Shown: in pieces, positions 1 through 63,819 of the stretch
Layout: each line of letters opens with the position of its first letter
Numbering within the stretch: position 1 is the first letter of the stretch
NCBI RefSeq assembly: GCF_041260155.1
Contig: NC_091934.1
Coordinates: 40,611,194-40,675,193, forward strand
Direction: 5' to 3'
Source: Ptychodera flava
Lineage: Eukaryota; Hemichordata; Enteropneusta; Ptychoderidae
DNA: 64,000 nt
The notes under the pieces: model-generated
The model's database searches: none
Told to the model about the DNA's origin: nothing
Seen by the model: only the letters and a program-made list of their open reading frames with translations
Translations under genes and position numbers: made by a program

Positions 1-567
1 CCATAAATAAAGGCACATATTTATCTAATTTTGTACTGAAAAAAATTATTCGTAGTTTCATCATAGACCCCTATGCATAGTGTATGGACATTTTGGTGAA
101 ATTCCAAAAACATATTTCTTGCACAACCATTGACTTGTAACCACTCTAGTCTAATCAAAAAAATTAATATCAATAATCAAGAGTACACAAATGCAAAGAT
201 GTACTTATTTTTGTATTGCAAAAATAACTATTCATCATTTCATCATAGACACCATGGATAGTGAACCAACTTTTTAGATGAAATTCAGAAATCAATTTCT
301 TGTACACAAATTTTCATTTTACTTCCCTATTCAAGCAAAGTACATTTAAATACATTATCAAACATATATAAAATACAGACTATAGCATGTTTTGTGGGGG
401 TAAATTGTCAATAATTTGCCTGATAGACTCCATGTATTATGATTTGATATTTTTGGATGAAACACTAAATCAGCCACAACTTGCCTTCTTATAGTTGCAC
501 AAAATATGGTGACCCTTCCTAAAATGTATGAAATACCATATCTCTTCAAAAATTCTTGCGTGATAAT
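1..567. repeat. Interior of an older repeat-filled element, split by the transposon at 568
   Basis: Diverged tandem copies of a motif reading roughly 'catagactcccatgtatagt' followed by 'gaatcaacattttggtgaaa' and 'ccaatttcttgcacacat' fill this stretch. The same unit fills the interior of the complete element at 54.16-56.09 kb. The matching right end of that family reappears at 7346-7627, on the far side of the transposon, so these two pieces look like one older element opened by a later insertion. No coding potential is visible. Confidence 0.7.
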
Positions 568-1165
568 ACCCGAATCACTACTTTCAAAGCGAAGCCATGT
601 TTACAATGAATTATGGAAATAAAAGCTTAGGTCACGGGGTCATTCGTGCCAAAGTGCCGGCGGCGTCCCTAGTTACCCCATAGGGCGCCATTGTTTTGCG
701 GCAAATTCAAAGTTGCAGTGATCACGGTAAGCGATTTTTCGTTATTTAAATACAAAACACGAAATTTACCAACATTGTCGAAACATCAACAACGTACAAA
801 CCTCTCTGTATCAGTATTTTTTTTGTTTAACCCTAGCGAAAAAAGAAATTCTCACTGATTGCGCTCCGCTGTGTGCGGTTTGCACTGTCGTCTGCTTCAA
901 GTTCAACCGCCATAAGACTGCGGTTGCTGACAGTTCAGAGGACCTTAAATTTCATATCAAAAGAAAGGAGCCATATCGAACTTAATATAATATATATACA
1001 TAATCCTAGATTTACAATGAGTCGATTGACTGTTTCTTGGTTTAGTCATGAACATTCCGGGTCCTGTTTACGTACGGTTACCCTCGAACGGCGCTACAGC
1101 AGTCGCGATCCCTCAGCAATACGATAAAGTAGACATATTTAGAGATCGAATAAATCTCTGAATGT
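568..1165 (+). repeat. Left terminal inverted repeat of the IS4EU-like transposon
   Basis: This arm matches the reverse complement of about 6695-7343 nearly end to end. Easily checked shared pieces are 'gtcacggggtcattcgtgcc', 'gcgctccgctgtgtgcg', 'cgacagtgcaaac' (reverse) and 'gtcgcgatccctca'. Small indels and substitutions separate the arms, so they have diverged since insertion. The arm ends about 100 bases before the start codon of the plus-strand gene, so it probably carries that gene's promoter. Confidence 0.85.
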
Positions 1166-1984
1166 TAGAGGGTTTTGGACCCAACTCTTTCCAGCACGGG
1201 TATTGTGTCCTGTATACGTATAGGTGCGCCATTATAGGTACATGTCTCTCTTTTATTTCTAGATATGATTACAAACATGGAAGAACGATTGCCACAGTGT
1301 CAAACAACTACGACACCAGAAGATTTTGAAACTTGGACTGTAAGCGCACTTCAGCAGTACATTGGCAAGAGAGGACTGAAAAAAGATGGAACTAAGGCAA
1401 TGCTCGTTGCAAGAGCGTATGCGGCCTGGGAGATGGAATTGCCAGTCCTGAAGAGCCAGCTAGAACTTCTCAAAGAAAAGCAGAAAGAGTACTTCACTCT
1501 GCTTTCTACACCGACGACAGGTCAACTAGCCGATCCTCTTACCATGAAAGTGGCTTGGAAAGTGGCTGGCTAGGAGAATCAGAGGGTGGCATGAAAAAGT
1601 GGCCCCCTGTCTATTTCAATGACATATGTCAATTTGTCATGATCGATCACCCTGGCAGAAACATTGACCTAACAAAACGAATGTTAAATGAATATAAAGA
1701 GGGCAAAGCTTTTCGGTACTTTCACGCGGACTGGATGAAAGAAATTTTCATCCTTGACACTTCTGCTGATAAGGAGTATGTGTTTTTTGCGTGGAAAGTG
1801 CACACCATCTCAACGAATTGGCTGTCCTCCACATGACTGTTGGATTTGTGTAAAGATGGACGGGTCGATCCATTCTGCATATTGCACCTGTACCGCTGGG
1901 TAAGTGTGCAAATCACTGAAATCATACTGATCACTGCTTATGGGAATACGAACTGTTTTTCTTAATCAAAATGATTAAAGGATA

Positions 1985-1997
1985 CATATATATAATG

Positions 1998-2063
<66 letters not shown>
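1985..2063. repeat. TA dinucleotide microsatellite
   Basis: An almost pure (TA)n run in the intron that follows the SWIM half-exon of the transposon gene. Confidence 0.95.
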
Positions 2064-2067
<4 letters not shown>

Positions 2068-2516
2068 ATGGATAGAATATTTATAAACCAACGAGTAAGC
2101 ATCAGTTTGAACACAGACAAAGAGAAAAACGTTTTCTCCTCATCCTCCAGAGTGTATCTTTAGCAGCTATGTGGGCTCATGCACGAAATATCAAATAAAA
2201 AGTAAAATAGATGGCTATTGAATGTAATTTTTCATTTTTTCTCTCTCTAAATTTAAGTCTTGGTGAGACTTGTAGCCACGTGACCGCTTTGCTCTTCAGA
2301 GTAGAAGCCGCTAATAGGACTGGAATGACAACCTAACATGCACCGAAGTAAACTGCAGATGGAACGTACCTAAAAAGAAAACAGACATAAATCCTATGAG
2401 AGTACAGGAAATGAACTTCAAACAAGCCAAATATAATGCTAAAGGTTAGTAAAATAATCACGTGATCGTTGTTGCTTCAGTTGTCATATTAATTATTACA
2501 TAGTAGTTCTGGTGGT

Positions 2517-2524
2517 ATCTCTCT

Positions 2525-2581
<57 letters not shown>
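2517..2581. repeat. CT dinucleotide microsatellite
   Basis: A (CT)n run, interrupted once by CC, in the intron between the second SWIM half and the next exon of the transposon gene. It explains the RE-rich minus-strand open frame here, which is not a gene. Confidence 0.95.
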
Positions 2582-2583
<2 letters not shown>

Positions 2584-3696
2584 TATTTCTGACAAATGTA
2601 GGCTGCCTACCGATAACACATTATGGCTTAAGTTGTTTTGCCACCAGGTGCACTGTATCACCCACTCATGTTATGTAATGTATTATGCCAAAAAAAATTG
2701 TGAGGTTCCGATAACATGGTTTCCAAAAATAGGGAGATAGGTCGGCAGGAGTTTTTTTTCCAAAATATTTTGTTTTAAATATGCATTTCAGCGGTTCAGG
2801 GCGGTCAAACGCTGGCTACAACATTTCCAGAAAAATGTATCACATTCATAGAAGGAAAAAAACAAAAGACATGCTCGTTCAAGCAATAATCAAATGCCAA
2901 ATAACGAACGCGTGATTTTACGGGGTATTTCATCTTACGTAGTTTTAAAAGTTTGGGGTCGGCAGGTAAAAAATAGGGTAGATCGGTTATCGGAACAGCA
3001 CAGTTTTTTTGTTCGGACTTATAACGCACACAATCTTGTGAAATGTCACAGAGAGAAATGTCGGTAAATAGAGAATATATTTGTAGAGAATAGATTTGTT
3101 GCGCTTTTGACAGGTTATGAAAATAATGTATTTTATGTGAGTTCGAAGTTGCTTTCACTTAATGTATTTTGTCATTTATCACTCGACCAGACAGTTTTAT
3201 AAATTGACATTTTTCATATTTTGGTTAGCTTATATGTCTATCATATACGATTTATTTTGAAATATCTCGTCTACATTTTTGTTCTGTTTCAGGAACTGTA
3301 AAGAGAACCCTCGTCGACACAAGAAAGTGCTTATTTTTTCCACTTCCTGAGAGGTACCAACCTGCAAATGATGAAAAACGATCTCCACAATCGACTTCGT
3401 CAGACTGTTTCCAATGCATGTTTATTGACTATGTTTGAAAAAGTATCTGTGAACAATGTTCAAAGCACTAATAATGCCTAGAGTGACTTGTCTGGTGTCG
3501 GGGACCAAATTGATACACTCGACGCAGATTATGATTGTACAGGGATTATCAACTTGACAGATCTCGCTAAAGTTACTGTCAACAAAGAACACAGTGTAGA
3601 AACTAATTTACGTGCCTTTCTTATTCATTTCCAAAGTATTCTGATGAAGATCTTAATTTTATTGAAAAAAACACAAGTTTACAAAATGAAAGTGCT

Positions 3697-4383
3697 ATGT
3701 GGCATGAAGTAAGAATTGGTAGGATTACAGCTTCTAATTTCTATTCCGTTTTCACAAAAATTAATACCATAAGAAATGAGAAATCAAACCGATCGAAAGA
3801 AACACAAAATTTGGTAGTTAAGCTCATGGGATATAAACCGATTAATCCAGACTTACCTGCACTGAAATATGGTCGCAACATGGAACCAATTGCAAAACAA
3901 AAGTACATTGAAATCATGAGTAAGGAGCATAATGAGGTTACAACTAGAGAATGTGGGATATTTATCGATAAGAATCGACCATACTTAGGGGGCACCCCAG
4001 ATTTGATAGTTTCTTGTAAATGCTGTGGACAGGGACATGTGGAAATAAAGTGTCCTAGAAGTATTGCCCATACAACTCCCAAGGTTGGCAAACCAGACTA
4101 TCTTGTAATGGTGGATGGCAAAACTATGCTGAAGCACAATCATGCCTATTATGCTCAGGTCCAAGGACAAACGGGGGTCACTGGTCACAAATGGTGTGAT
4201 AGTTTCGTGTTCACGTCACATGGTTATCATCTTGAGAGGATATGTTTTGATCGAAGCTGCTGGTTTAATATGGTCGAAAGACTTGATTACTTTTTCTTTA
4301 AATATCTAGCTGTAAAAGTTATCACATGTCGAATTAATTGCGCTCTTCAATCATGTGCAAATGACATTGAGCTGCAGAGTTAA
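3697..4383 (+). CDS. YqaJ-like nuclease domain, open part of the broken transposon gene
   Basis: This is the longest intact open block of the plus-strand transposon gene (228 codons). The reading frame really begins further upstream, at about 3622 ('YSDEDLNFIEKNTSLQNESA'), so the ATG is internal. YqaJ/lambda-exonuclease-fold hallmarks appear in order: 'RIGRITASNF', a glycine then glutamate in 'YGRNMEP', the aspartate in 'GGTPD', and the E-x-K triad partner in 'VEIKCP'. Metal-dependent nuclease activity is expected from family knowledge. The C-terminal part, 'YAQVQGQTGVTGHKWCDSFV', matches the usual end of the fold. The residues are intact although flanking exons are not. Confidence 0.8.
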   Translation: MWHEVRIGRITASNFYSVFTKINTIRNEKSNRSKETQNLVVKLMGYKPINPDLPALKYGRNMEPIAKQKYIEIMSKEHNEVTTRECGIFIDKNRPYLGGTPDLIVSCKCCGQGHVEIKCPRSIAHTTPKVGKPDYLVMVDGKTMLKHNHAYYAQVQGQTGVTGHKWCDSFVFTSHGYHLERICFDRSCWFNMVERLDYFFFKYLAVKVITCRINCALQSCANDIELQS

Positions 4384-4837
4384 GTTCGACCGGGCCTTTC
4401 TAGTGTACGCGCCACCATCGTTTCAACTTCATGGCGGCCAAACAAGAGATCTGCCCTTGAAGACCAAATGATTGTATGTCCAATGTGTTCGGAAGTTTGC
4501 TTTGAAGAAGAAGATATTGATATGTTTACTCAACGTAGTATTCAATGTCATAGTTGTAATATGTGGGTGCATTTAAAGTGTGCCTCATTTGTTCCAAGGA
4601 ACATCTTCGCAAAATAGGTAAAACATGGCTTTGCCAGTCGTGTAATTTATAATATAGGCTGTTCTGATAAATTGATATTCTGTAATGATTTCAGAAAAAA
4701 AGGGATAATTTTCTTAGTTTCTCCAGAAATCACAATATATTTTGGCTCTTAAGTACGTAAATTAAAAGACGGTGAGACGTTAGATTGTTTAAATTGAATG
4801 TGTTTTGACCTATTGACTAACTTATGCGCGTGAGTGT

Positions 4838-4840
<3 letters not shown>

Positions 4841-4868
<28 letters not shown>

Positions 4869-4875
4869 ATATATA

Positions 4876-4921
<46 letters not shown>
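4841..4921. repeat. ACAG and TA compound microsatellite
   Basis: About six ACAG units are followed directly by a (TA)n run. It lies between the ends of the two convergent transposon genes. Confidence 0.95.
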
Positions 4922-4923
<2 letters not shown>

Positions 4924-5016
4924 TATTTTTTTTTTCTCTATATGGAATTATCTGCAAGTACAATTATAAATATCATGTCAAAACTGGTTTAATTGCAATA
5001 TCTACAAAATGATTAT

Positions 5017-6675
5017 TTACACAAAGGGGTAAATATTACACAGGGCGGCGCAGCATGTTATAATATCATCTAAATGATGGACCAATGTAACAGGCAATTC
5101 ATGTTTTAAGATCCGAAACGTTTTCAATCTCCCGATTGCCATTTCAATATATATCCTCCGATTTGCGATTTTCTTTGTTTTTTGAACATCGGCCTTGGAC
5201 ATTTGCTCTGTTCCCCTACAGCTCGGTTTATGTATAAATGAGTATGGCGAATGACAAGTTCGTCGGCTATTTGAAATCACCTATCTGCCATTACTCTATG
5301 GCCATGTCTTGTGCTTCGATAATGTCGAGGAAGCTGAAGTGTTTGACGAAATGGCAGTCTGGCCACCCCAACCACAGGATACAAAATTAAAAGCCCCCGT
5401 CTGGACAATATTTGAGCAAGTATTTAATTGTATGGTGATGCTTATAGTCGGACCAGGTAGCAGCTTGGATACGCAAATCTCGAGGGGCTTTCAATAAAAA
5501 TCTCTGTACAGTCAATTATGTGACGGCAATTTTTAAATTGGACATTTGAAAATTTCTTGGGGAGATGCTGCCACACTACATATCTAGGGGGATTAAATAA
5601 CATACAACCCCACTCTCTGGATAAGAATCTAAGCCAAGTTAAAAAAATCTTACTGACTGTGTTAGGGGAAATACCAAACCGATAACCTAGATCCCTATGC
5701 AGGAGACCTAGCCTGATTTTCATAAGGAAGAGTAAAAATTCATCCTTCCCTGTTAACTTCCTTGATGGGCCAAACTTCTTCGGTGACTTTGAAAAACGGC
5801 GTGGCACCTTGGAGGATAATTTTACAGGCCCTTTCCAGTAAAGTTTTGGGAACAGTCCCTTAATTTCTACAATATAAAGCTTGAAATGTTGCTATATTTT
5901 CGATACCCGTATAAAACTTACATTTACTATCGCTATCATTTCGGTCATAACCAAATTTGCGTGACTTAATTTCCTTTTCGACTAGCTTACCCTCATATTG
6001 AATAATCCGTTTCTTTAGTTTTGAAATTAAGATTTTGAGATTTGATATTTTTTTGGATTTGATCCGGCATTGAGTGCAAGTATTGTCATAGTTATGATAA
6101 CGCATTGGATCATAATTGTCATCGTCACACTGAGAGTTCTCATCATGATTTAAAGGTAAGTTTGCATTGTGCTTTGCGTCGGGTAGTTCGGCACTGGCAC
6201 TGTCATTTTCGTCCTGACGGTCTCCATCGACGTTGTTAGCTTGAATGACGTTGGTTACTTCTTCTGCATGTATCGTTTTCATTTTCCGCTTTTTCTCTGG
6301 CACATATGGCGTTCTGTTCGGCGGGGCCCGTCGTGTTGGAACTACCGGCAAATCATAGCCTAAATCCAGAGTAGGGTCGGGATGAAGAGTGGTCGGTTCT
6401 CCGCAAACAAAGTGTTTGGAACACACCCTTGAATTATAGTTTGGTTGCCAAACACTTCCACGAGAGCCCTGCCTATTTATCATTCTAACCCAGCGTGCTC
6501 TAGCATCTGGATCCCGAGACACAGTAGGGAAAGGAAACAAGGTGAATGGTGGTGTACACGAGCAGGAGCGAGTGCCACGGTTACAGCCGTGTATTTCACA
6601 AACGCCGTCCTTCCATTTATTGAGGTGATAGACACTGTTGGCACACCCATAAACGGCACAGTTTCTGTGTGACAT
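5017..6675 (-). pseudogene. THAP-domain DDE transposase of the IS4EU-like element, broken
   Basis: The best start is the ATG at 6675, giving 'MSHRNCAVYGCAN', because 'atgttttttcag' sits immediately before it as a splice acceptor; a longer open frame reaching 6765 would read through that site. The N terminus is a THAP-type zinc finger: 'CAVYGC', an unusual inserted cysteine-rich loop ('CEIHGC', 'CSC'), then 'CSKHF'. A charged linker and short coiled coil follow (to 5860). After a frameshift come a helix-turn-helix block ('LGYRFGISPNTVSKIF', about 5660) and the DDE core: first aspartate in 'IDCTE' (about 5515), second in 'ADR' followed by a stop where glycine is usual (about 5265), and the glutamate in 'IEMAIGRLK' (about 5130). 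The protein ends 'ITCCAALCNIYPFV' at 5017. At least three breaks make it inactive. Confidence 0.8.
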
Positions 6676-6694
6676 CTGAAAAAACATATTGAAT

Positions 6695-7343
6695 GATGCG
6701 TTCAGAGATTTATTCCATCTTTTGGCATGTCTACTTATCAAATTAATGAGGGATCGCGACCGCAAGTATGTATAGCCTACAGTATAAGCTTACTAAACTT
6801 AGGCCTATATGTAAACAGTACAGGACTCAGAATGAATGTTCATGACCAAGAAACACTCAATCGACTTATTGTAAAGCTAGGATTATGTTTATATGTTATA
6901 TTAAGTTCGATATGGCTCCTTTCTTTCTGATATGAAATCTAAGGTCCTCTGAACTGTCAGCAACCGCAGTCTTATACATGTAATATGATGGCGGTTGAAC
7001 TTGAAGCAGACGACAGTGCAAACTGACTTACGCACACAGCGGAGCGCAATCAGTGAGAATTTCATTTTTCGCTGGGGTTAAACACAAAAAAATACTGATA
7101 CAGAGAGGTTTGTACGTTGTTGATGTTTCGACAATGTTGGTAAATTTTCGTGTTTTGTGTTTAAATAACGAAAAATAGCTTACCGTGATTCACTGCAACT
7201 TTGAATTTGCTGCAAAACAATGGCGCCCTATGGGGTATCTAGGGACGCCGCCGGCACTTTGGCACGAATGACCCCGTGACCTAAGCTTTATTTCCCACAA
7301 TTCATTGCAAACACGGCCTTCATTTGGAAGTAGTGATTCGGGT
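6695..7343 (-). repeat. Right terminal inverted repeat of the IS4EU-like transposon
   Basis: Reverse-complement partner of 568-1165, ending 'tagtgattcgggt' followed by AT. Its inner end overlaps the region just upstream of the transposase start, so this arm probably supplies the transposase promoter and leader exon. Confidence 0.85.
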
Positions 7344-7345
7344 AT

Positions 7346-7627
7346 TGCGACTGTCCCTCCAAAAACACCAGCCCTCCCCTCTGTAATTTGTCCCTAACAT
7401 AACAATTGAACCAATTGTTATGTAAATTAGCTGACACTGATTTGGTTATTCCCGGGGAGAATACCGCAGTGGTTTTTTTGGGGGGAGGGTCAAGTTTTAG
7501 AATGTCGGACAAGATGGAGGGTCACATTTTAGACAGGAGGATAGGGGAAGGGTCACATTTTACGGTACAGGTGTTTGCGAAATTCCCCCGGCCCACCCCC
7601 ACCCCCCTGTAATTACTGAAAGCTCCC
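7346..7627. mobile_element. Right end of the older element split by the transposon
   Basis: The G-rich 'ggggggagggtca' tracts, 'ggcccacccc' and the terminal 'agctccctaa' match the right end of the element at 54.16-56.09 kb (there 'ggcccacccctgg' and 'tgctccctaa'). It is separated from its interior (1-567) by the 6.8 kb transposon. The left end lies outside the window. Confidence 0.7.
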
Positions 7628-7769: not shown

Positions 7770-8159
7770 GCGATCGTAGCATGGGTTGGATTAGCGGTCC
7801 CGGGCAAAGCCGATCGACGAGGCCTAAAGGCAAGTCTTGGTGGTGTGTGAAACCCTTGGTCTTACCTGTTGGCCTTCTGACCGACCGCTCAACCAACATG
7901 CAACAAATGAAATGGATGTGTGGACCCTGGAAGCAGAAATTCTTTCAGTGACTTCGGTGGTGATTTAGTGATCAAATGTGTCTTTTTCTGCTTTTTGGCT
8001 GTCATTCACAATGTTTCTTCCGCTTTTTTCCTTTAAGAAGAATTTAGTGTTTAAGTCCAGAAAATCAATGTGAAATGTCTTTTCGACGCAATTATGATGT
8101 ACAATGTGTTATGCCATTATTAACACCTGTATGTTAGTCGTTTCATGTGTCAACGTGTG
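7770..8159. other. Non-coding stretch, nothing recognised
   Basis: No open frame, splice-bounded exon or terminal repeat could be supported here. Confidence 0.5.
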
Positions 8160-8790
8160 TGATCAGAGGCGGCCCAGACACCATTAATGAGCTTATTATT
8201 GAGTTTTTCTCAATTTTCTCTATCAGTTCCTCTCCTTTTCTTCATGCTCTGACTGATCGTAGTGAATAAAATAAATGACAATAAGACCTAACCTAGCCGC
8301 TTGACTCTTTATTTGTTTTACACCCCATTACAAGGACGTTTATCTTTCATATACACACATCTTGTAATTAATTAGTCAACACAACTAATTATGCTAATCC
8401 GTGGAGTTATCAGGGATTTTATGGGTTGGTCAACATCGCGAAAGATAGGAAAGGTTTTCATTTACATGTCTATCTTTCCAATGTTGACCAACCCTTGATA
8501 AGTCCACGGATTAGCATAATTAGTTGTGTTGACTAATTAATTACAAGATGTGTATATGAGAAATAAACGTCCTTGTAATGGGGTGTAAAATGAATAAAGA
8601 GTCAAGAGACTAGGTTAGGTTATATAACCATTTATTTTATTTTATTTACTTCGATCAGTCAGAGCATGACGACATAGTCCCTATATCCATGGAGGGACTG
8701 TGATGAAGAAAAGGACAGGAACTGATAGAGAAAACAGTGAGAAAAACTCAATAATAAGCTTATTAATAGTGACTGGGCCGCCTGTGGTGT
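8160..8790. mobile_element. Fold-back element with arms of about 280 bp
   Basis: Two long arms (about 8165-8448 and 8471-8785) are near-perfect reverse complements around a spacer of about 22 bases. Matching landmarks are 'gaggcggccca' with 'tgggccgcct', 'ggttggtcaacat' with 'atgttgaccaacc', and 'attagcataattagttgtg' in both orientations. The right arm carries about 37 extra bases at about 8666-8702 that themselves form a hairpin ('agtccct' to 'agggact'). The structure is that of a fold-back or long-TIR MITE. No protein is encoded. Confidence 0.85.
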
Positions 8791-10167: not shown

Positions 10168-11586
10168 TTATACAAGTCTGACCAAGAGATACATCATGAA
10201 AAGTAAGACTATGTTTGCGTTAACGAATGAAGCTGCTGCGACACTTCCGTCGTTGGTTTGACCCTGATTTTGTACACCAGAAGCACGAGTCGGAACGGGT
10301 TCTCCTTTTGGAGGAGTGTACGTTGATGTTGGGCAATTCGTTCTACCATGTTGCCCACCCGGTTGCTGCATCCCTGGTTGCGGTGTTCCTGGTGGCTGCA
10401 TCCCTGGCTGCTGCATCCCTGGTTGCTGCATTCCTGGTTGCTGCATTCCTGGTTGTTGCATTCCTGGTTGTTGCATTCCTGGTTGCTGCATTCCTGGTTG
10501 CTGCATCCCTGGTTGCGCTGTTCCTGGTTGCTGCATACCTGGTTGCTGCATTCCTGGTTGTTGCATTCCTGGTTGCTGCATCCCTGGTTGCGCTGTTCCT
10601 GGTTGCTGCATCCCTGGTTGCTGCATTCCTGGCTGTTGCATTCCTGGTTGTTGCATTCCTGGTTGCTGCATCCCTGGTTGCACTGTTCCTGGTGGCTGCA
10701 TCCCTGGTTGCTGCATTCCTGGTTGTTGCATCCCTGGTTGCTGCATCCCTGGTTGCTGCATTCCTGGTTGCTGCATCCCTGGCTGTTGCATTCCTGCACC
10801 ACCATTCAACATTTCGTCAGACATGCACTCGATTGGCCAGCGATCTGCTGTCCCGTTGAAGTTTTCGGAGCTGGCGAAGTAACATTCCCGTCCATTCGTT
10901 CGAAGTCCGCTGTCGGGAAGAATGTTACCTTTATAGCATCCAATCCAATATGGATAGAACGACGTCACATGATAACGATACTTTCCGTCCACGTATCGTC
11001 CACCACAGTCATCCAAATCATCTTCTGCTAGCTCAGCGCCACTTTCGTCCAAGGGACCGTATACAGGAAAACCGTCCAATGCAACACCAACTATTCCCGA
11101 CAGTTCTGCTGTGGTCATTCCCGTTAGAAAGCAGCTGTCAGGAATCCTGTGGTAGTGGTAGCGCCCGTGCGGGTCGGGATGGCCATCACATTGGTCAAAG
11201 ATCTCCTTGAAGGGGCCGTCGACAGCATTATAACCCTCTGCCGTAAAGGGGTTGAAGAAAGGCACTCCATTTGTCGCAAAACCAATAGGTCCCATGGGCA
11301 GACAGCTTGGTTCGTCTGCAATCGATGGCTCGGCTGGAATACGGTACTCGTATTCTTGCTCTAAGATTGAATTTTGATTCAATCCCAGAAAATCTCCCGT
11401 GTCAGTGTCTGGGATACCGTTGGCCCGAACGATCAGAGTTGCCCCATCTGCGGTGATGGTGATGCTGCCAGTCAGGCCAGTGTTATGCTCCACTGTTCCC
11501 AGACTTCCAAATGCTGCGATTTCATCCTCTGTCAATCCTAATGCAGCACCTACGACGCTGATGATAAGCAAAGCGTGAATCACCAT
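10168..11586 (-). CDS. Secreted, probably GPI-anchored YHYH-domain protein with GMQQP repeats
   Basis: The start is ATG at 11586 ('MVIHALLIISVVGAALG', a typical signal peptide cut near residue 17-18). The open frame extends upstream only through a TTG codon and reaches a splice acceptor at 11614, so a leader exon is likely. The mature part contains a YHYH domain (PF14240-like) with 'PHGRYHYH' near residue 143, a second 'KYRYHVT' block, and spaced cysteines (for example 'DQCDGHPD', 'IGCYKG', 'RECYF') suggesting disulfides. Residues of about 264-408 are 29 pentapeptides, mostly GMQQP with GTAQP, GTVQP, GTPQP and GMQPP variants. The final 20 or so residues ('NIVLLFMMYLLVRLV') are hydrophobic and end the protein, as in GPI-anchor signals, though a single membrane helix is possible. 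The total is 472 residues in one coding exon. The biochemical role of YHYH domains is not known to me; surface or matrix display is inference. Confidence 0.88.
   Translation of the reverse strand: MVIHALLIISVVGAALGLTEDEIAAFGSLGTVEHNTGLTGSITITADGATLIVRANGIPDTDTGDFLGLNQNSILEQEYEYRIPAEPSIADEPSCLPMGPIGFATNGVPFFNPFTAEGYNAVDGPFKEIFDQCDGHPDPHGRYHYHRIPDSCFLTGMTTAELSGIVGVALDGFPVYGPLDESGAELAEDDLDDCGGRYVDGKYRYHVTSFYPYWIGCYKGNILPDSGLRTNGRECYFASSENFNGTADRWPIECMSDEMLNGGAGMQQPGMQQPGMQQPGMQQPGMQQPGMQQPGMQPPGTVQPGMQQPGMQQPGMQQPGMQQPGMQQPGTAQPGMQQPGMQQPGMQQPGMQQPGTAQPGMQQPGMQQPGMQQPGMQQPGMQQPGMQQPGMQQPGMQPPGTPQPGMQQPGGQHGRTNCPTSTYTPPKGEPVPTRASGVQNQGQTNDGSVAAASFVNANIVLLFMMYLLVRLV
10361..10795 (-). repeat. 15-bp coding minisatellite (29 pentapeptide units)
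   Basis: Twenty-nine tandem 15-base units encode GMQQP-type pentapeptides in the YHYH protein. On the plus strand the unit reads like 'cctggttgctgcatt'. Variant units (GTAQP, GTVQP, GTPQP) recur at intervals of about 5-8, hinting at a higher-order unit and past unequal exchange. No stop codon occurs in several frames of the unit, which produces long spurious open frames on both strands. Confidence 0.95.
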
Positions 11587-11612
11587 TTTCGCTGTCAAGC
11601 GACGACAATCGA

Positions 11613-13518: not shown

Positions 13519-14022
13519 CACTATAGGACAAAATTGCGAGACTAGAGCGAGAAAATGACGCTTTCTCGCAATCAGTGAGAATCTGTTCTTATTCTCACCG
13601 CTGTCGGTGAGAAAATTTTAATCTCCACTGGAGATTGGTGAGAAATGCACTCATTGGCGAAAATCAAGTGTGAGAACAAATTCTCACCGGTGAGAATAGA
13701 ATTCTCACCAAGTACAGTGAGAATTGAAATTCACTGGCGAGAATCATCAAGACTCGCCGTTCATTGGCGAGAATCAGCAAGACTCCCCATTCATTGGCAA
13801 AAATCAGAATTTCAATTCTCACTGTACTTGGTGAGAATTTCCATTCTCACCGGTGAGAATTTGTTTTCACACTTGACTCTCGCCAAGGAGTGCATTTCTT
13901 ACCAATCTCCAGTGGAGATTAAATTTTTTTCACCGACAGCGGTGAGAATAAGTGAACAGATTCTCACTGATTGCGAGAAAGCGTCGTTTTCTCGCTCTAG
14001 TCTCGCAATTTTCCCTACAGTG
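13519..14022. mobile_element. Fold-back element rich in GAGAAT/ATTCTC hairpins
   Basis: The ends are 'cactataggacaaaattgcg' and the near reverse complement 'cgcaattttccctacagtg'. The arms (about 13519-13735 and 13808-14022) pair almost throughout, and each contains nested short palindromes such as 'attctcaccggtgagaat' and 'atctccactggagat'. The centre holds two or three copies of 'tcattggcgagaatcagcaa'. CAC termini recall CACTA/Chapaev-type ends, but no exact target duplication was found. A 136-codon plus-strand frame inside it is an artefact of the repeats. Confidence 0.8.
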
Positions 14023-15797: not shown

Positions 15798-15979
15798 AGG
15801 TATACTGTCACCTGTTTCAATTTTGCCAGTTACCATGGAAAGAGAAAAATCTAACCAGTCACAGATTTTAAGCGGGTGGCCACTTTTAAAACAGCGCCCT
15901 CCCATGCGCATTTTGAATACCAAGGAACGCCCCTTTGACCATATATGGGCATATTTAGATTACGGGTGACTGTATACCT
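15798..15979. mobile_element. MITE flanked by TTAA, AGGTATAC family, copy 1
   Basis: The ends 'aggtatactgtcacctgt' and 'gggtgactgtatacct' are flanked by TTAA at both sides (15794-15797 and 15980-15983). Homologous copies lie at 49348-49532 and 63367-63546. A TTAA target is typical of piggyBac- and Kolobok-derived MITEs. The superfamily is inferred only from the target site. Confidence 0.85.
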
Positions 15980-15983
15980 TTAA

Positions 15984-23900: not shown

Positions 23901-26900
23901 AATGTGTCTGAAAGCAATCACACTCGGGGACATTAGAAATGCTACTGGGGTTCCCAAATCATGTGTCTATCTTCCAAAGCCTTTGCAAAAACACTACTGA
24001 AGGTGCATCAAGTAGGGTCTGAGTTTCTATAATCTTACCTGAAATCTTAAGATATGACAGTGGAGGAAGCGGTGCATCTCTGCTTGTGGTCTTGATTTGA
24101 TGAATTTGTCCAATCTCTCCGGCCTTGACTCGTTGAACGACACTACGTATTGCTGGGTCAAATCGTCTACATAGTGAGAAAATGCATACGAGTTTAAGTT
24201 TGATACTGATGAGAGACAATCGCTACTGAACAAAGATTTAATACTTGAACTTTGTATAGCCCTTTCAGAGTCATGGATTGGCCCCTAACTTTTGTTCTAA
24301 ATAGTAGCTGGGATCTATTTACAGGGAATTGGGGAAAAGGTTGATGCAATAGATACAAACTGCTGGTTTACATTAAGGTGGTACTTTGCCCTTTGAAAAT
24401 GAAAGACTAACATGTAAACTTTTGCTCAAACTTTCATCGAACAAATGTTAAACCACTGTCTTTCAAAATCAAGAATAAAAATTGGGGGTCCCAATGCAAA
24501 TTTTTGTACCAGAAAAACAAATTACCCAATATTTACCGATTTGAAATTCAAAATGGCCACCATTTCTGTGTTACCTCTATGGGAAAAAGCGAAATTCCCG
24601 ATTTTCACAAAACTAAGCCTGTGAAAACTTTTCTAACTCTACAAGCATCAAAATGTGCCACTAGGCCAAAAGAATATTTTAAAAGCGACCTAGCGGCCGA
24701 TATAGCTCCGCTGTGTTTATGTACAGAATAACTATTTTTGACACATGTTGATGAAGAAGGTGGAAATCTTTGATAACTCAATGCAGTGGCCAGAAAAAAG
24801 TGGCTAAAATAAGCTGCAAAAATACAAAATTGAAGATTTCATCATACTTTGAATATATCACATTCGATCATCCCTAAGAACATGTCAACCAAAGCTATCT
24901 GATGAGTAGTTTTTGAGAATAAAATATTCTGACCAAAGTGGCAACAATTGCCCCAAAAAATAAAAATTGCAGATTTCATCATAATTTCAAAATATCACAC
25001 TTAGTTCATATATAGAAACCTGTATACCAAATTTCAAAGCTGTTAGACCAGTACTTTTCGAGAAACGCATTTTTTGACCAAAAATGAGAAAAATTGCCCT
25101 AAAATTCAAAATTGCAGATGTCATCATTATTTCAATAAATATCATTTAGTTCATCTATGGAAACCTGTATACCAAATTTCAAAGCTATCAGATAAGTAGT
25201 TTTGGAAATACACATTTTTTGACCAAAAATGGCAAAAATTGCTCAAAAAATACAAAATTACAGATTTCATCAGAAATTCAATATATATTACTAAGCTTAT
25301 CTGTAGAAAGCTGTAAACCAAATTTCAAAGCTATCAGACCAATACTTTTTGAGGAACACATTTTTGGACCAAAAATGGCAAAAATTTCCCCAAAATTACA
25401 AAATTGAAGATTTCATCATTGTTTCCACAAATATCATTTAGTTCATCTGTAGGAACCTGTATACCGAATTTCAAAGCTATCAGGTGAGTAGTTTTGGAAA
25501 TACACATTTTTTGACCAAAAATGGCAAAAATTGCCCCAAAAATACAAAGTTACAGATTTCATCAGAAATTCAATATATATTACTTAGTTTATCTATAGAA
25601 ACCTGTATACCAAATTTCAAAACTGTCAGACCAGTACTTTTTGAGAAATACATTTTTTGACCAAAAATGACAAAAATTGCCTTAAAAATGCAAATTTGCA
25701 TATTTCTGCACAATTTGAACAAATCTGAAATAGATCATCCCTAGGGACATATGTACCAAATATAAAAGCTATCTGACTGGTAGTTTTGAAGATGAAGATT
25801 TTTAAAGATTTTTTTACCAAAAATGACAAAAATTGCCTTAAAAATACAAATATGCAAATTTCACCACCATTTTAACAAATCTGATTTAAGTCACCCTAAG
25901 CAAACTGCATATCAAATTTCAAAGCAATCGGACGAGCGATTTCAGAGAAGAAGATTTTTTTACCAAAAACACCAAAAAATGCCCCAAAAATACAAATATG
26001 CAAATTTCACCATGATTTGAACAAACTGAAGTGAGGTCACCCCAAGTGAACTGCATATAAAATTTCAAAGCAATTCGACTTGTGGTGTCAGAGGAGAAGG
26101 CAATTGTGGACGGACTACGACGGACGACGGACGCCAGACGACGGACGACGACGGATAATCAACCTATTTGATAAGCTCCGCGTCGCTGACAGCGGAGCTA
26201 AAAAGTTTGACGGTTCAAATATCTCAGTGTTCCTGAGGCACATTCAACCTTAAGATATTTTTCAAATATTCGATTGGCAGAGGTGCACATGAATATGTTA
26301 TGGGTAAGACACAGTGGTGCGGCTACTGTGCATATTTTTAAAGGCCAACAGCAACATTGTATACCAATGGGTTGAAAAACTATTTAAAATTCCAGCACTT
26401 GAAACACTGGAAAGCCTACCTGTTCAATGCACAATATAGAGCTATACCATATTTCTCTGCATCATCATAGCAACCCTGTGTACCTTCAACAGTGCGAGCA
26501 ATTGGCTTTTCACAGAAAACTGCTTTTCCTGATTTAATGTTGAAAGAAACGAAAGGAAACCAAGAGAGAATTAACAACACTTTCATTGTAGTTATGGACA
26601 GGTTTAAAACGCTTCTTTTTTAATGGAAGTCTGAGTTAAGCATTATTATCATTAAAAGAACTAAAACAACAGTTATGAGACAGAAGAAATCTACTCTCTC
26701 AAAACAACGATGTTCTCCTTGGGACATTTTCAAACTTCCATTGTTTGTCTTATTTTTATGGTTGAGTTCAGAATTCTTGCTGGTTCACTGCAGTTAACTT
26801 ATGATGAGTCTATTTTGCAATCAATACCACTCTGTATAGGTTTTCAGTCAGATGATGACATACCAATCGATGTCAATCATTTCAACAAAAAGCTTAAGAT

Positions 26901-48700: not shown

Positions 48701-51700
48701 CTCATTTATGGCAAGAAATTTTCGATTTTGTAGAACTTATTATACATTCTGGCTTGGTTAAAAGATCACAAAACATATGTAAATGGTTTGTTTACCTGAT
48801 ATGAAAAGGCAGTTGTATAATGCATGAAATCGAGAGGGAGAAAATAACAAAGTAAAGGGTAAATGGGGAGTCGGGAAATGGCTTACAGCTAGTCTAGCCA
48901 AAACCCCGTCATGATAAATTGTCCGAAACTCAAAGTTAGCAAAGAGGGCTCATAATAAAAGTAACAAATAGTTCTTTAAATAAAAACAAGAAAAGCACTG
49001 ATTTAATAACAACATTGTAGTAAATCACTAAATTACTAAATGGCAAAAGTGAAGCCTGTTACTGATTGATCAAATGTTGTCTGAAAGTTTGTTTGATGTA
49101 AAGAGTTTGTGGACTTAATGTGGACGGAAATGTCGTTCCAAACTCTTGCTTCAGAAAAACAAACGGCAAACTGGCCTGAATTTGTCATTGCATGATATGG
49201 ACGTAGGTTTTGAAGTTGACAATTTCTAGTATTATAGTCGTGACAACTGACACTGAAGTAATCTGATAATGTATGTGGTGAATGCTTGTGAATCAAGCTG
49301 TAAACGAAGAGACCTAGGAGGAATTTATAGAGTTTAAAAACATCTATAGGTATATAGTCACCTGTAATCTAAATATATCCATATATGGTCAAAGGGGCGT
49401 TCCTTAGTATTCAAAATGCCCGTGTTAGGGCGCTGTTTTTAAAAAGCGGCCACCCACTTAAAATCTGTGATTGGTTAGATTTTCTCTTTCCATGGTAAAT
49501 GTGGCAAAATTGGAACAGGTGACAGTATACCTTTGAGTTGAGTGAAACAAAGAGCTAAGTGGTCTGTGGTTGATTTGAACATTTTTTGGGCTGTATAAAC
49601 TCTGTCATACATTAAGTTGATTTTCAAACAATCAATCACAAAAGAGTTCAGTTTTTGCTTAACCTTGGCAAAAGCCAATTAAAAGAGCGTGTATACACAC
49701 TTCAGACGACTACTTTAAATTTGTTTTAGAACAACACATACCTATTATCTCCCAGGACGGCTGCCATTCCTCGGCTGTCGACCACCCTGGTGTCATCCAG
49801 GAAATATTGCTTGACTGTTCTATTGGCTGTCTCCACATCTTCTTCGATGATCCATCTCACAGCGGCACGATGGTTGGCGACAACGTTTTTGAAGTGAATG
49901 GTACCAGCTCTACCTAAACCAAATATGGCAAAACCAACTGGCCTGTCTTTTAGATATAGAGTAGAGGAAAAAAGATAGAAATTCAGGGACGAAAACTACT
50001 GTAGGAATACTAAGCTACTCTGTGTGGTACACTATTAAAGTTGTCCTTGACTGTCTGACCTAGACCGAGGTTGATCATCAGAACAATAAGTCAGGCCGCA
50101 TTGATAGCCCTGCTAGCAATACTTAGCTTGCTGATCAAGTCGTACTGGAGGCTAGAGCTACATTTTACCGTTTCTGTTCAAATTCCAAATTAAAGTGCTC
50201 GACGTAAGACGGTAATGTTGGGCTTGAACAGCCTGAAATAAAAGCCTGGTCTCTTATACTACATGTTTAATGAGCATATTACTGTTTTAGTCAAATCAAA
50301 TGGCAAAGCAGCCATGATGAAAGAAATATCAATTACAGCTTGAAACTCGAGGGCGCACTTCACCATTACACAAAGGAAAGCTGCCAACTCAAATTGTTTG
50401 CAGTCAAGCACCAACAAAATAAAAAAGGTTTTGTGAATTTTGCATTGTCCTTGAGAGACAGCATACACCATGATGCCTCCAAGTCATTCTTATTCAATTA
50501 TATCACATTTATAAGTACCCTAGACCTGGCTGGACCAATACTTAGAGAAATATTCCTATGTTGACTTTGACAGTTCAGTTTTGAGGTCGGTCAGTGATAA
50601 AAATAAACATCCTTCAGTATTAATGTAAATGTATATGGACTAAATTTTGTTATAAGGACGTTTAATGAGTGTGCAACCATTAACATTGTTTTCATGGCAT
50701 GACTTTCAATCCATAACAAGTCAATATGGACAGACTATACTGAAAACAGTGTTAATATAGTTGTACTTCATTGGCCTTTCATTCTGTTTCAAAAGGAAGT
50801 TTATTCTCGGACAAATTTCTCAGCTTTCATCTAAGATGAAAGCTAGGAAATTTGTCAGAAAGAATCTTTCAAAATGGAAGTTAAATTTGTCAGAAAATAC
50901 ATCTCCTATTTTTGAAAGATTCTTCATAGAAAAGTAATTGAACATTTACAAAAACTATAAAAAGAATGCTAGCGAGACAGGTGTTTGTTTAACATGTACT
51001 ACATTTTATACTGGTAGTTTGATTAACTTTTTAAAGTGTAGTAATCCATTGCTTGTTCCCAAATTTACCATCATGTGTGTTTAATATTGACTACCAGTAG
51101 AAATTCAGATGAAATTTTCAATTTTGATCCGGGGTATTATACCGTATATTGCTGAAGTTGGCAGTCAGAACCCTATGTTGACATATGTGACTCATATTTA
51201 TTATTGATATCATGCTTGTGGTAAGAAGAAAAATTATTGTCACTGCTTAAATGTATTAACAATTTTCAAAAGTCATGTCAAAAATTTAAAATCATAGACA
51301 AATATTTGAGACATATTTTTGCATAATTGAAATTGTGATAAAATTTCAAATCAGCCCTCATTGTTGAGAAACCTTTTTTGACAAACAATACAAAAAGCCA
51401 GTAAAACTCTTATCATACACTACCCATAGTCGCAACCAGTGACTTACAGGCTCATCAAATTCTATCTGACAATTAAGCTATAGGACTGTTTCAGATTGTC
51501 GCACAGCAGTTCAAACACCAATTTATTTTGGGAGGGCAGGGGAGTTGACTTCAGTACAATACTTTAGCACTCACTTTGGTGATAGCTGTTTTGCCTTTTT
51601 GATTGTTTGTCCTTTTAGTTTATTGATTACACCTTGGAGCCAACCACCGGATCTTCATGGTAATACCAATAATTGACAATGCTGTACGGTCTGAGGGAGA

Positions 51701-54159: not shown

Positions 54160-56092
54160 TTAAGGGAGCGTTCAGTTATTACGGCCGGGGATGGGCTGGC
54201 AAAATCCGGAGGGTCACATTAAATTTGAAAACTGCAAAGGGGGGGGGGTCATGTATTTTTCCAACAGCTCAGAGGGGGGGGGGGTCACTTAATTTTCATA
54301 AGTATCCGTCCCGTCAAGCAGTTTTAGTGTTCAGAAAAATTCTGGGAGATAAAAATGATTCGCTGCATGATTTCATTCTATTAAATCTGAACAAAAGTAT
54401 AATTATCTGTCACATGAACATTTTTACTTGGGAATTCTGAGGCTTGTCTTATTGTAAATCAAGCTCACTGAGGGCAATGAACAATTCCTATTACTTACAT
54501 ATTAGAGATATAGCAAGTTTTGTCAGGGAAATTATTTAACAGTTACCTGTATAGTAATAGTACCATGAAAAGTGAAATTATACTTTTAGGTGAATCATAT
54601 TTTAGGTGAAATTCCAATATCATACTTGTTGTCAACATCTGAACTTTCAAATACCCTATTTGAATCAAGTACATTTGTATCAATATCAAACACCTATAAA
54701 AGCACAAATTAATTTAGTTAAGCATTGTAAAAAAATTATTCACAGTTTCTCATAGACTCCAATGTATAGTGAATCAACATTTTGGTGAAATTCCAAAATC
54801 CAATTTCTTGCACACATATCAACCTTTAACCATCCTAGTCTAACTAAGTACTTTAAAATGAATTATCAAACGTCTATAAATACACAGATTTAGATAGTTT
54901 TGTATTGGAAAACAATTATTCATAGTCTCCTCATAGACTACCATGTATTGTGAATCAACATTTCGGTAAATTTCTAAAATCCAATTTCTTGCACACATAT
55001 CCATTTGTAACCACTATAGTCTAATCAAGTACATTAATATTAATAATCGAGAGTACATAAATACATAAATTTACCTACTTTTGTTTTGGAAAAAACATTG
55101 TTCACAGTTTCCTCATAGACTCCCATGTACAGTGAATCTACATTTCAGTGAAATTCCAAAATCCAATTTCTGGCGAACAAATCCATTTATTACCGCCATA
55201 GTCGTATCAAGTACATTAATATTAATAATTGAGAGTACATAAATACACAGGTTTACCTATTTTTGTATTTAAAAAAATTGTTCATAGCTTCCTCATAGTG
55301 GATGAACATTTTCAGTGAAATTCCAAAATTAGATTTCTTGTACATATAATATGCACCATTGTATTCTAATCAAGTAAAATTATGTTAATTATTGAACATC
55401 AGTATATGCACAAGTATAGCAAGTTTTTCATTGGAAAAAAATTATTCACAATTTTATCATAGACTCCCATGTATAGTGGATGAACATTGTTGGTGAAATT
55501 CTAAATTCAAAGTTTTGTCCACATACCAGTTGTAACAACCCTATTCCAATGAAGTACAATTAGGTCAATTATCAAATATCTATAAATGGTGCATAGATAT
55601 AGTTTTGTATTGAAAAAGTATTACATAGTTTTCTCATAGACTACCATGTATAGTGAATCAACATTGTCAACAGCCGATTATCAATTAAATCCAAATATCA
55701 AAATTTTGTACACATACGCTTGCGCAAAAATATAATGCAATCCACCTGTAATTTCTGTCCAATCCCTTTGAGGGGTAATTTAAAAATTATAGCAAGTCAG
55801 AAGGGAAATGTGAACATTAACAACTTGTGAGCATGTAAGGAGGGTCATTTGAAAAAATCTGGGAATCTTTTTTTTGATTCTATCATGCCCCCAAGAGGTG
55901 TTTGTGTGTGCAGCTTACTCAAGCGATGGGGGTGGGGTGGGGGGGGGGGTGGTCATGAAATTTTTGCCATGTTAAAAGAGGGGTCATCAATTTGTTGGTG
56001 CAATGGGTAGGGGGTTCACTTATTTTGAACGATGCCCAGGAAGAATTTGCCGGCCCACCCCTGGCCATAATAACTACATGCTCCCTAAATAT
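54160..56092. mobile_element. 1.9-kb inverted-repeat element with internal tandem repeats
   Basis: The left end 'aagggagcgttcagttatta' followed by 'cggccggggatgggctgg' matches the reverse complement of the right end ('ggcccacccctggccataat' then 'aactacatgctccctaa'). Both ends carry G-rich 'ggagggtcac' tracts. The interior (about 54520-55720) is a diverged tandem array of the 'catagactcccatgtatagt' type, with units of roughly 150-170 bp. Nothing is encoded. The same family was split by the IS4EU-like transposon at 1-7.6 kb. The target duplication is not resolved; TTTAA or TAA is possible. Confidence 0.75.
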
Positions 56093-57849: not shown

Positions 57850-58745
57850 GTAAGTCTGTATGTATGTATGTATGTCCGTTTGTGAGGCGACCGTCCACTC
57901 AAATATCTCGAGAACCACAGTACTTACTGATTTGATATTTGATGTGTAGATGAACAATATGATTATGAGAAACCGCTTTTTTTTTATTTTTTGATATTGT
58001 TGAAAATATGCAAATTAGCACCAAAAAGGCGTTTTTGGTAAAAAATCATCTTCTTCTTCATAAATGCTGGTCAGACAGCTTTGTTATTTGGTATACAGGT
58101 CCCTGGGAAAAACCCAACTCAGATTTGTTCAAATTGTGATGAAATATGCAAATCTGTATTGTTAAGGAATTTTTTTGTCATTTTTGGTCAAAACTTTATT
58201 TCATCAAAATCGCTCGTCTGGCAGCTTTGATATTTGATATACAGGTGCCTACAGACGAACTAAATATGATATATTGAATATATGATGAAATCTGCAATTT
58301 TGTATTTTTTGTGCAATTTTTGCCATTTTTGGTCAAAAAATGTGTTTCTCAAAAACTACTTGTCTGATGCCTTTGATATTTGGTATACAGGTGCCTAGGG
58401 GTTGTCTTAGTGTGATTTATTGAAATTTGATGAAATCTTCAATTTTTGTATTTTTGGGTCAATTTTTGCCATTTTTGGTCAAAATATTTGTTTCTCAAAA
58501 GTTACTTATCTGATAGCTTTGATATTTGGTATACAGGTTGCTAGGCTTTATCTTATTGTAATATATTGAAATAATGATGAAATCTTCAATTTTGTATTTT
58601 TGCAAATTTTGCCATTTTGGTCAGGCCATCCTGAAATGAGCTATCAAAGATATCCACCTTCTTCATCAATACATGTGTCACTAAAAGTTATTCTCTACAT
58701 AACACAGCAGAGCTCTGTCGACTGTTGGGTCGCTTGTTTTTTGAA
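57850..58745 (-). repeat. Diverged tandem array, inverted relative of 24.7-26.2 kb
   Basis: About six units carry 'gatatttggtatacaggt', 'ccatttttggtcaaaa' and 'gatgaaatcttcaattttgt'. Its right border 'ctctacataacacagcagag' is the reverse complement of the left border of the 24.7 kb block. A GTAT-rich start ('tgtatgtatgtatgtatg') precedes it. Confidence 0.8.
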
Positions 58746-62700: not shown

Positions 62701-63819
62701 TATATTAACCAATAATGGTATGTTCTGTGTTTTCACTTCCAGAGAGGAGCTAAAGACATGTAGAGATAAAGTTGAAGCCCTTGAGAAGGAGCGAGATGAA
62801 GTCTATAACTCTATCCAGGAGGAGGAAGAAGCTAACAACATGGCTGCTGTTTACAGATTGAGGTCAAAGCATGAAAAGCTTTGCATTGAACTTGAAGCTG
62901 AGGAAGCTATGGAGAAAGAGATAGCACAGAAACTAGAGCAGGCAGAGTAAGCCTTTCTCTTTGAATTCTTTCAGTGTCAAATAAATTAGTTAGATTGAGT
63001 TGATACTTTGGACAGGGAGAGACAAATACATGTACACAAGAGTGATTGATAAAGGAATACTAAAAATAATTTTTGTCTTCAGTAATGTGCACCTAGAAGG
63101 AATATCGAAAATTATTTTTCTCTGTGATATAGAGCACCTTGAAAACAGAATGTTTAAACTTTTTTACAAACTTTTCTCTTTCAAGAATAATAATCAGTGG
63201 TCACCTTGCAAAATGTTGGATTAGAGAAAACCATTACTGAAAATTTACAAATGTTTGAAATACAAATGCAAGCAAATATACTTCACATGAATATCTGTCT
63301 AAAGCAGGCTTATGATCATGATCAGATTTACTGTATTCAAATGCAATGTCTATATAGACTCATTAAAGGTATACAGTCACCTGTAATCTAAATATGCCCA
63401 TATATGATCAAAGGGGCATTCCTTGGTATTCAAAATCGCCATGTGAGGGCACTTTGTTCAAAATGCGGCCACCCACTTAAAATCTGTGATTGGTTAGATT
63501 TTCTCTTTCCATGGTAACTGTGGCTTGGAACAGGTGAAGTATACCTTTAAGGTACCTCTCTACTTCATCGCCTTCAAGCCATTTTGACATGACAGAGTAA
63601 ATTTTGACAACTGCTTGGAATATATATCCCTTCCATTACTTGCAGATTTGAGCTCGCCAAAGTGCAGGTGGAGCAAGGCAAGTTTCTGCTGGTGGAGGAG
63701 GACCTGCAGAAAGACGAAGAGAAGTGGCAAAAAGAGAGAACGGATATTGCAGCTCAAAGAGCAAAGAAGGAAACTCTGAAAGTCTTACAAGCCGAGAGGA
63801 GGAAAAAGAACAGGGACAA
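59763..63819 (+). CDS. Coiled-coil protein, first four coding exons (gene continues past the window)
   Basis: Exons: 59763-59908, 61113-61253, 62743-62946 and 63646-63819. All junctions are GT-AG and every phase matches. The N terminus is acidic and proline/serine-rich ('MEDSSDLQSPDVPDDFQPSR'), then from 'TSQQKITRQEKLRMMALRRH' onward it is almost entirely charged heptad-like helix ('ALEKERDEVYNSIQEEEEAN', 'EKEIAQKLEQAEFELAKVQ', 'AERRKKNRDK'), so a long coiled coil is expected. The last visible exon ends at a GTGAGT donor at 63819, so at least one more exon lies beyond 64000. No enzymatic domain is seen. Such architecture is common in ciliary or cytoskeletal proteins, but I do not recognise the family. 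The start is the first ATG of an exon and gives the only long frame. Confidence 0.85.
61497..61710. mobile_element. TTAA-flanked MITE, CCCTTTGAGTGC family, copy 2
   Basis: TTAA at 61493-61496 and 61711-61714. The ends 'ccctttgagtgc' and 'gtgctcaaagca' are imperfect inverted repeats. Homologous to 45279-45526. In the second coding intron of the coiled-coil gene. Confidence 0.85.
63367..63546. mobile_element. MITE flanked by TTAA, AGGTATAC family, copy 3
   Basis: 'aggtatacagtcacctgt' to 'gaagtatacct' between TTAA at 63363-63366 and 63547-63550. In the intron before the last visible exon of the coiled-coil gene. Confidence 0.85.

Follow-up and report, generated by a model that had tools for sequence, protein, structure and literature searches.

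A coding-dead ISL2EU-type transposon of Ptychodera flava with long terminal repeats that may act as twin promoters

In a 64,000-nucleotide stretch of the genome of the hemichordate Ptychodera flava (contig NC_091934.1, forward-strand positions 40,611,194 to 40,675,193; hereafter the window), positions 568–7343 are a 6,776-bp cut-and-paste DNA transposon of the ISL2EU type, a copy with both ends complete and its coding sequences dead. Its two genes, a transposase and a nuclease, converge from long terminal inverted repeats (TIRs; hereafter the arms). As the best explanation of this element we tentatively propose, from sequence, that each arm would act as promoter and leader exon for the gene beside it, with the leader spliced to that gene from a donor that the two arms share. 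The analysis covers one copy of the element within the window; blastn with the element (E up to 1e-4) detects no further copy there.

We assign the element to ISL2EU from the AT target-site duplication, the long inverted repeats, and the convergent genes for a THAP-DDE transposase and a YqaJ nuclease. The inverted repeat opens ACCCGAATCACTA at 568 and its inverse closes the element at 7343; the ends are flanked by A plus AT (565–567) and by AT plus T (7344–7346), that is, the target in this one copy is A|AT|T with duplication of the AT. A sequence-only reading of the same DNA had described an IS4EU-like two-gene transposon at exactly these coordinates; IS4EU is the older name of ISL2EU, and both the identification and the convergence of the two genes (transposase on the minus strand, nuclease on the plus strand) are borne out by the target site and by the THAP, HTH, DDE and YqaJ domains.

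Repeat structure, splice signals and start codons

Each arm has a contiguous part of about 480–500 bp and, further inward, a separate 65-bp inner block, within an envelope of 600–650 bp. When the element is compared with the window by blastn, the outer repeat pair (565–1041 / 7346–6845) aligns over 504 columns with 90.9% identity, gaps counted, and the inner pair (1099–1162 / 6763–6701) aligns separately (81%, E 2e-7). The arms previously drawn at 568–1165 and 6695–7343 are thus sound as an envelope, but one that encloses a stretch in which the two sides are little alike (61.5% for 1041–1067, 38.7% for 1068–1098). The identity between the arms is a mosaic: identity to the right arm is 97.1% for the core (628–1040; 413 columns with 12 mismatches and 6 gap events), compared with 75.0% for 588–627 (10 mismatches in 40) and 80.3% for the inner block at 1099–1165 (13 mismatches in 66), each differing from the core with a Fisher P of about 3e-6; the arm tips (564–587) are 91.7% identical. 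With flanks at 75% and 80% around a core at 97%, the core looks as if it had been homogenised; this is read most simply as old arms whose core was probably homogenised at a later time, before or after the present insertion.

The candidate leader donor, ACG|GTAAGC (at 727 and 7183), scores 5.58 bits, which places it in the top 0.45% of all 7,395 GTs that the window has on its two strands; inside the repeat it is the sole donor of at least 0 bits in either arm, and outside the repeat the left side has a weaker one at 1224 (3.41 bits). The sequence-only reading had predicted a leader donor common to the two arms and had named its absence as the outcome that would count against the idea; the donor is present in both. 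The candidate acceptors, at 1262 for the nuclease and at 6676 for the transposase, lie outside both the core and the inner block and are therefore independent, one for each gene. With the full matrix the first is strong (equalled by 0.23% of AGs, and by an acceptor within 6 nt of 0.04% of the 2,610 ATGs in the window) and the second moderate (1.79 bits; equalled by 5.6% of AGs and, within 6 nt, at 2.2% of the same ATGs).

The arm cores are depleted of ATG on the strand that reads inward, toward the genes: the left core (628–1040) contains 1 inward ATG and 9 outward ones, the right core 2 and 12, and among the 32 trinucleotide pairs ATG shows the strongest strand asymmetry in both cores. Inward counts as low as these were obtained in 0.30% (left) and 0.75% (right) of 2,000 dinucleotide shuffles each, and 0.62% of 16,054 overlapping 413-bp segment-strands from positions 7400–64000 contain one ATG or none. 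The left arm is free of ATG from 614 to 1016, and inward of its core ATGs return at 1048, 1162 and 1242. Because the arms are copies, the depletion counts as one observation; to judge from composition, it supports inward transcription of the core as a putative leader.

The outermost part of the core has several features that a promoter might have. Positions 628–730 are 54% GC (window, 37%; 1.8% of 103-bp windows are equally rich) and contain 8 CpGs (as many in 3.1% of windows), the right arm having 7 (5.6%). The motif AGGTCA-CG-GGGTCA, noticed after the fact, occurs identically in both arms (629–642 on the plus strand, 7282–7269 on the minus strand); we take it to be a DR2-like direct repeat of nuclear-receptor half-sites, and the two arm copies are two of the four RGKTCA direct repeats (spacing 0–6) on both strands of the window. 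An initiator-like TCATTC is located at 640 and 7271; its consensus, TCAKTY, is so common (1.8 per kb per strand) that finding it carries little weight.

The mechanism that we propose would operate as follows. Each gene would be transcribed from a start within its own arm, close to the core's outer edge (the least-supported step); the arm would provide its gene with a non-coding leader; and in at least part of the transcripts this leader would be joined from the donor at 727 or 7183 to the acceptor at 1262 or 6676. Exchange between the arms would have homogenised the core and kept the arms alike, and transposase and nuclease would then be produced under the same control.

Alternative readings of the arms

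The idea of twin promoter and leader arms, which the sequence-only reading had put forward, is strengthened by the shared donor, the acceptors and the ATG-poor core; the promoter role stays putative, and several observations weigh against the spliced-leader model. The ATG depletion persists past the donor, with 1 inward and 6 outward ATGs in 727–1040 (shuffle P 0.016) and 2 and 9 in the right arm (P 0.054), and it does not reach significance within the 99-bp leader by itself (0 and 3 ATGs, P 0.19). The arms contain no convincing TATA box (AATAAA occurs 22 and 21 bases upstream of the TCATTC), and other core-promoter motifs match only weakly. Between the arms, identity is not significantly higher in the leader part of the core (98.0%) than in the intron part (96.8%, Fisher P 0.74), so arm identity is itself no proof of function. 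Donors and acceptors were scored with generic matrices, not trained on the host species, and a donor as good as ACG|GTAAGC is expected in 9.9% of 473-bp segments drawn at random from the window; with a chance rate of about 10%, the shared donor is weak when taken alone, in agreement with the prediction and not proof of it, and because the arms are copies the donor pair is one independent observation. The difference between the acceptors also depends on the matrix: when its first 8 positions are omitted, 1262 (equalled by 3.4% of AGs and at 1.1% of ATGs) and 6676 (4.2% and 1.5%) are alike, and under the full matrix 6676 scores below the acceptor at 7072 inside the arm (5.18 bits). The host DNA past the right end contains a stronger donor at 7865 (7.12 bits), with weaker donors at 7602 and 7596; splicing to 6676 could therefore also occur in a transcript that begins outside the element. 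Finally, the transposase has an in-frame ATG at 6687 in a frame that is open back to 6765, so it could start without splicing; for this reason the earlier claim that the acceptor immediately precedes the first usable ATG is uncertain for the transposase (6675).

Since the depletion extends past the donor, into the stretch that the spliced-leader model removes, leaders that are unspliced, otherwise spliced or begun at multiple starts are a serious rival. According to this explanation, which we consider somewhat unlikely, the arms bear promoters and long 5' leaders without splicing from 727/7183 straight to the genes; the leader could be unspliced, could begin at several starts along the core, or could lose only a short arm intron between 727/7183 and 836/7072. 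The chance rate of the donor and the open frame around ATG 6687 both fit, and the short intron could use acceptors that are common to the arms (4.69 bits at 836, 5.18 at 7072), its two versions being 110 and 112 bases long and ATG-free. The strong acceptor at 1262 argues the other way, as do the ATGs that would precede the gene start unless an intron were removed (1017, 1048, 1162 and 1242 on the left; 7065, 6979, 6843, 6728 and 6718 on the right), and the repeat beyond 836/7072 has no further donor of at least 0 bits. It is also conceivable, but in our judgment unlikely, that the arms are transposition ends only, that is, that they bind transposase and were homogenised by gene conversion or template switching, with the promoters located elsewhere (e.g., in host DNA or in the DNA that separates each gene from its arm). 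Cut-and-paste transposases do bind near element ends, the near-identical block gives no sign of specially kept leader bases, and the right host DNA has stronger donors, 7865 being the best; yet neither arm has arrays of short subterminal motifs (in each, repeated 7-, 8- and 9-mers are no more frequent than after shuffling), the stretch beside the tips (588–627) is less alike than the core, not more, the inward-strand ATG depletion goes unexplained, and in the left host flank, to position 1, no donor exceeds 1.85 bits. An assembly artefact, or a pair of insertions instead of one element, might account for the mosaic arm identities, but both are very improbable given the symmetric ends, the AT duplication, whose A|AT|T target is the published one, and the ISL2EU gene pair enclosed by the arms. 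With these alternatives weighed, splicing of a leader from each arm to its gene is the explanation that we hold to be best, as a possibility that falls short of an even chance.

Genes, relatives sought and surroundings of the element

The features of the element are collected in Table 1. From the right arm inward, the transposase gene gives matches above the Pfam cut-offs for THAP (5.8e-9), HTH_Tnp_4 (2.8e-16) and the C-terminal part of DDE_Tnp_4 (1.2e-15), and a fourth piece matches DDE_Tnp_4 just below the cut-off (3.4e-5; 24.0 vs 24.8 bits); the four pieces fall in three frames, and none matches any MULE model (Pfam, E up to 1). From the left arm inward, the nuclease gene encodes SAP (5.9e-8) and YqaJ (7.2e-17) domains as well as a PHD-like finger just under the curated cut-off (1.7e-4; 22.0 bits, cut-off 24); the YqaJ-bearing open reading frame (ORF) is intact over 3697–4383, and by sequence the nuclease matches the solved exonuclease 3syy (E 2.7e-9). 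The nuclease gene appears to be spliced, with the frame kept at 1899|2258 and 2444|3293; the first of these junctions completes C-x-C-x7-C-x-H in frame, which by eye is SWIM-like, although Pfam gives no SWIM call.

Table 1. Coordinates of the features of the transposon in the window.
Feature	Positions	Strand	Basis
Left target-site duplication AT (A at 565)	566..567	.	sequence
Right target-site duplication AT (T at 7346)	7344..7345	.	sequence
Left terminal inverted repeat, contiguous part	568..1040	+	blastn and alignment
Right terminal inverted repeat, contiguous part	6845..7343	-	blastn and alignment
Left-arm inner block, 80% identical to right arm	1099..1165	+	blastn and alignment
Right-arm inner block	6699..6763	-	blastn and alignment
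Putative promoter/leader-exon stretch, ATG-free, GC-rich	628..726	+	sequence composition and motifs
Candidate leader splice donor ACG|GTAAGC, left arm	727..732	+	donor matrix
Candidate leader splice donor ACG|GTAAGC, right arm	7178..7183	-	donor matrix
Second candidate acceptor in the repeat, last base, common to both arms	836 (right arm 7072)	+	4.69 and 5.18 bits
Strong candidate nuclease splice acceptor, last base	1262	+	acceptor matrix
Moderate candidate transposase splice acceptor, last base, directly before ATG	6676	-	acceptor matrix
Nuclease, first coding exon (SAP domain), frame changes; donor at 1900	1263..1899	+	ORFs, Pfam, splice scoring
Nuclease, second coding exon, interrupted by a stop; donor at 2445	2258..2444	+	in-frame junctions
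Nuclease, third coding exon: YqaJ exonuclease domain and PHD-like finger, with breaks	3293..4615	+	ORFs and Pfam
Transposase gene (THAP, HTH_Tnp_4, DDE_Tnp_4), broken by frame changes and stops	5017..6675	-	ORFs and Pfam

Relatives were sought in viral and prokaryotic sequences. Protein scans of viral contigs with the YqaJ and HTH pieces gave 1 and 26 pattern stretches, respectively, and a scan of prokaryotic genome contigs with the DDE piece gave 64; no relative was found among any of these by tblastn. A TIR 22-mer had no match in the viral contigs. A TIR 20-mer gave one match, of 21 bases, in a Bacteroidales metagenome-assembled genome, which we take to be chance; besides this, blastn of the whole element against that 8-kb locus showed a single further similarity, 21 bases at 90% in another place (E 0.11).

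The left host flank of the transposon (1–470) is a worn copy (about 67–74% identity) of a 181-bp tandem repeat that makes an array from 54696 (54696–55714), so the element was inserted at or near satellite DNA. Beside the transposon, 8164–8786 consists of nested inverted repeats (8164–8221 / 8729–8786, 8265–8357 / 8549–8641 and 8345–8418 / 8490–8563), as in a foldback-like or miniature element. Elsewhere in the window, a 476-amino-acid ORF (10168–11598, minus strand) has a YHYH domain (4.5e-22) and, after it, a long PGMQQ-type repeat (about 29 copies of a 15-bp unit); at 13588–13952 a spacer of 137 bp separates the halves of a 114-bp inverted repeat (93%); a dispersed repeat of roughly 100 bp occurs in three places (15881–15983, 49345–49443 and 63363–63465; 88–89%); and a 146-bp satellite forms arrays at 24890–26074 and 58043–58623, which lie about 32 kb from each other and are oppositely oriented. 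Rfam gives nothing at the gathering threshold in the window.

Comparison with known transposons

According to the available text of Han et al. (2015; PMC4482050), ISL2EU elements (PHIS superfamily) have an A|AT|T target with AT duplication and a second ORF with a YqaJ nuclease domain, the role of which, including its part in transposition, was given as unknown at that time. The P. flava element shares with them the THAP/HTH/DDE transposase, the YqaJ-bearing second ORF and the AT duplication in A|AT|T, but it is longer (6,776 bp vs an average of about 4,840 bp) and so are its arms (about 480–600 bp vs 6–259 bp, which is the range of one survey and not a definition); its ends begin ACCCG, whereas ISL2EU TIRs usually begin GG (a tendency, not a definition), and its nuclease has a SAP domain and a PHD-like finger, neither of which is mentioned for ISL2EU in the same text (PMC4482050). 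PIF/Harbinger elements have a similar DDE transposase and a two-ORF coding plan, but as far as the same text describes them their second gene is Myb/SANT and their target duplication TWA, in contrast to YqaJ and AT here (PMC4482050).

The closest parallel in design is maize MuDR, for which the portions available of two articles (PMC3310237, PMC8224964) describe two convergent genes and TIRs of about 200 bp that are the promoters for both. The element described here resembles MuDR in its long TIRs and two convergent genes, with a promoter role that we deduce from sequence, and differs from it in transposase family and in second gene; it may work alike without being a member. Since the twin TIR promoters of MuDR are known, the design is not new in principle; the present element is set apart by its family, by the length of its arms and by its candidate leader exon and donor, a spliced leader of the kind proposed not being described for MuDR in the same portions of PMC3310237 and PMC8224964. 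As for ISL2EU, no statement on promoters in the arms was found in the text available of PMC4482050, PMC9179366, PMC12730594, PMC3310237 and PMC8224964, a set that does not include the Repbase reports, where a described relative is possible; the word promoter has 0 occurrences in PMC4482050 and PMC9179366.

A broader interpretation, which we regard as doubtful, is that in an ISL2EU lineage the terminal repeats may have grown into duplicated expression cassettes (promoter, non-coding leader and splice donor) that were kept alike by inter-arm exchange, so that transposase and nuclease would always be made together; MuDR would have come to the same design independently. If the two genes do share duplicated control DNA, the nuclease is likely to be required alongside the transposase, and in two-gene transposons not only transposase binding but also expression would determine how long the arms are. 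Such elements could then have a simple route for scattering promoter-plus-donor units that splice into host genes.

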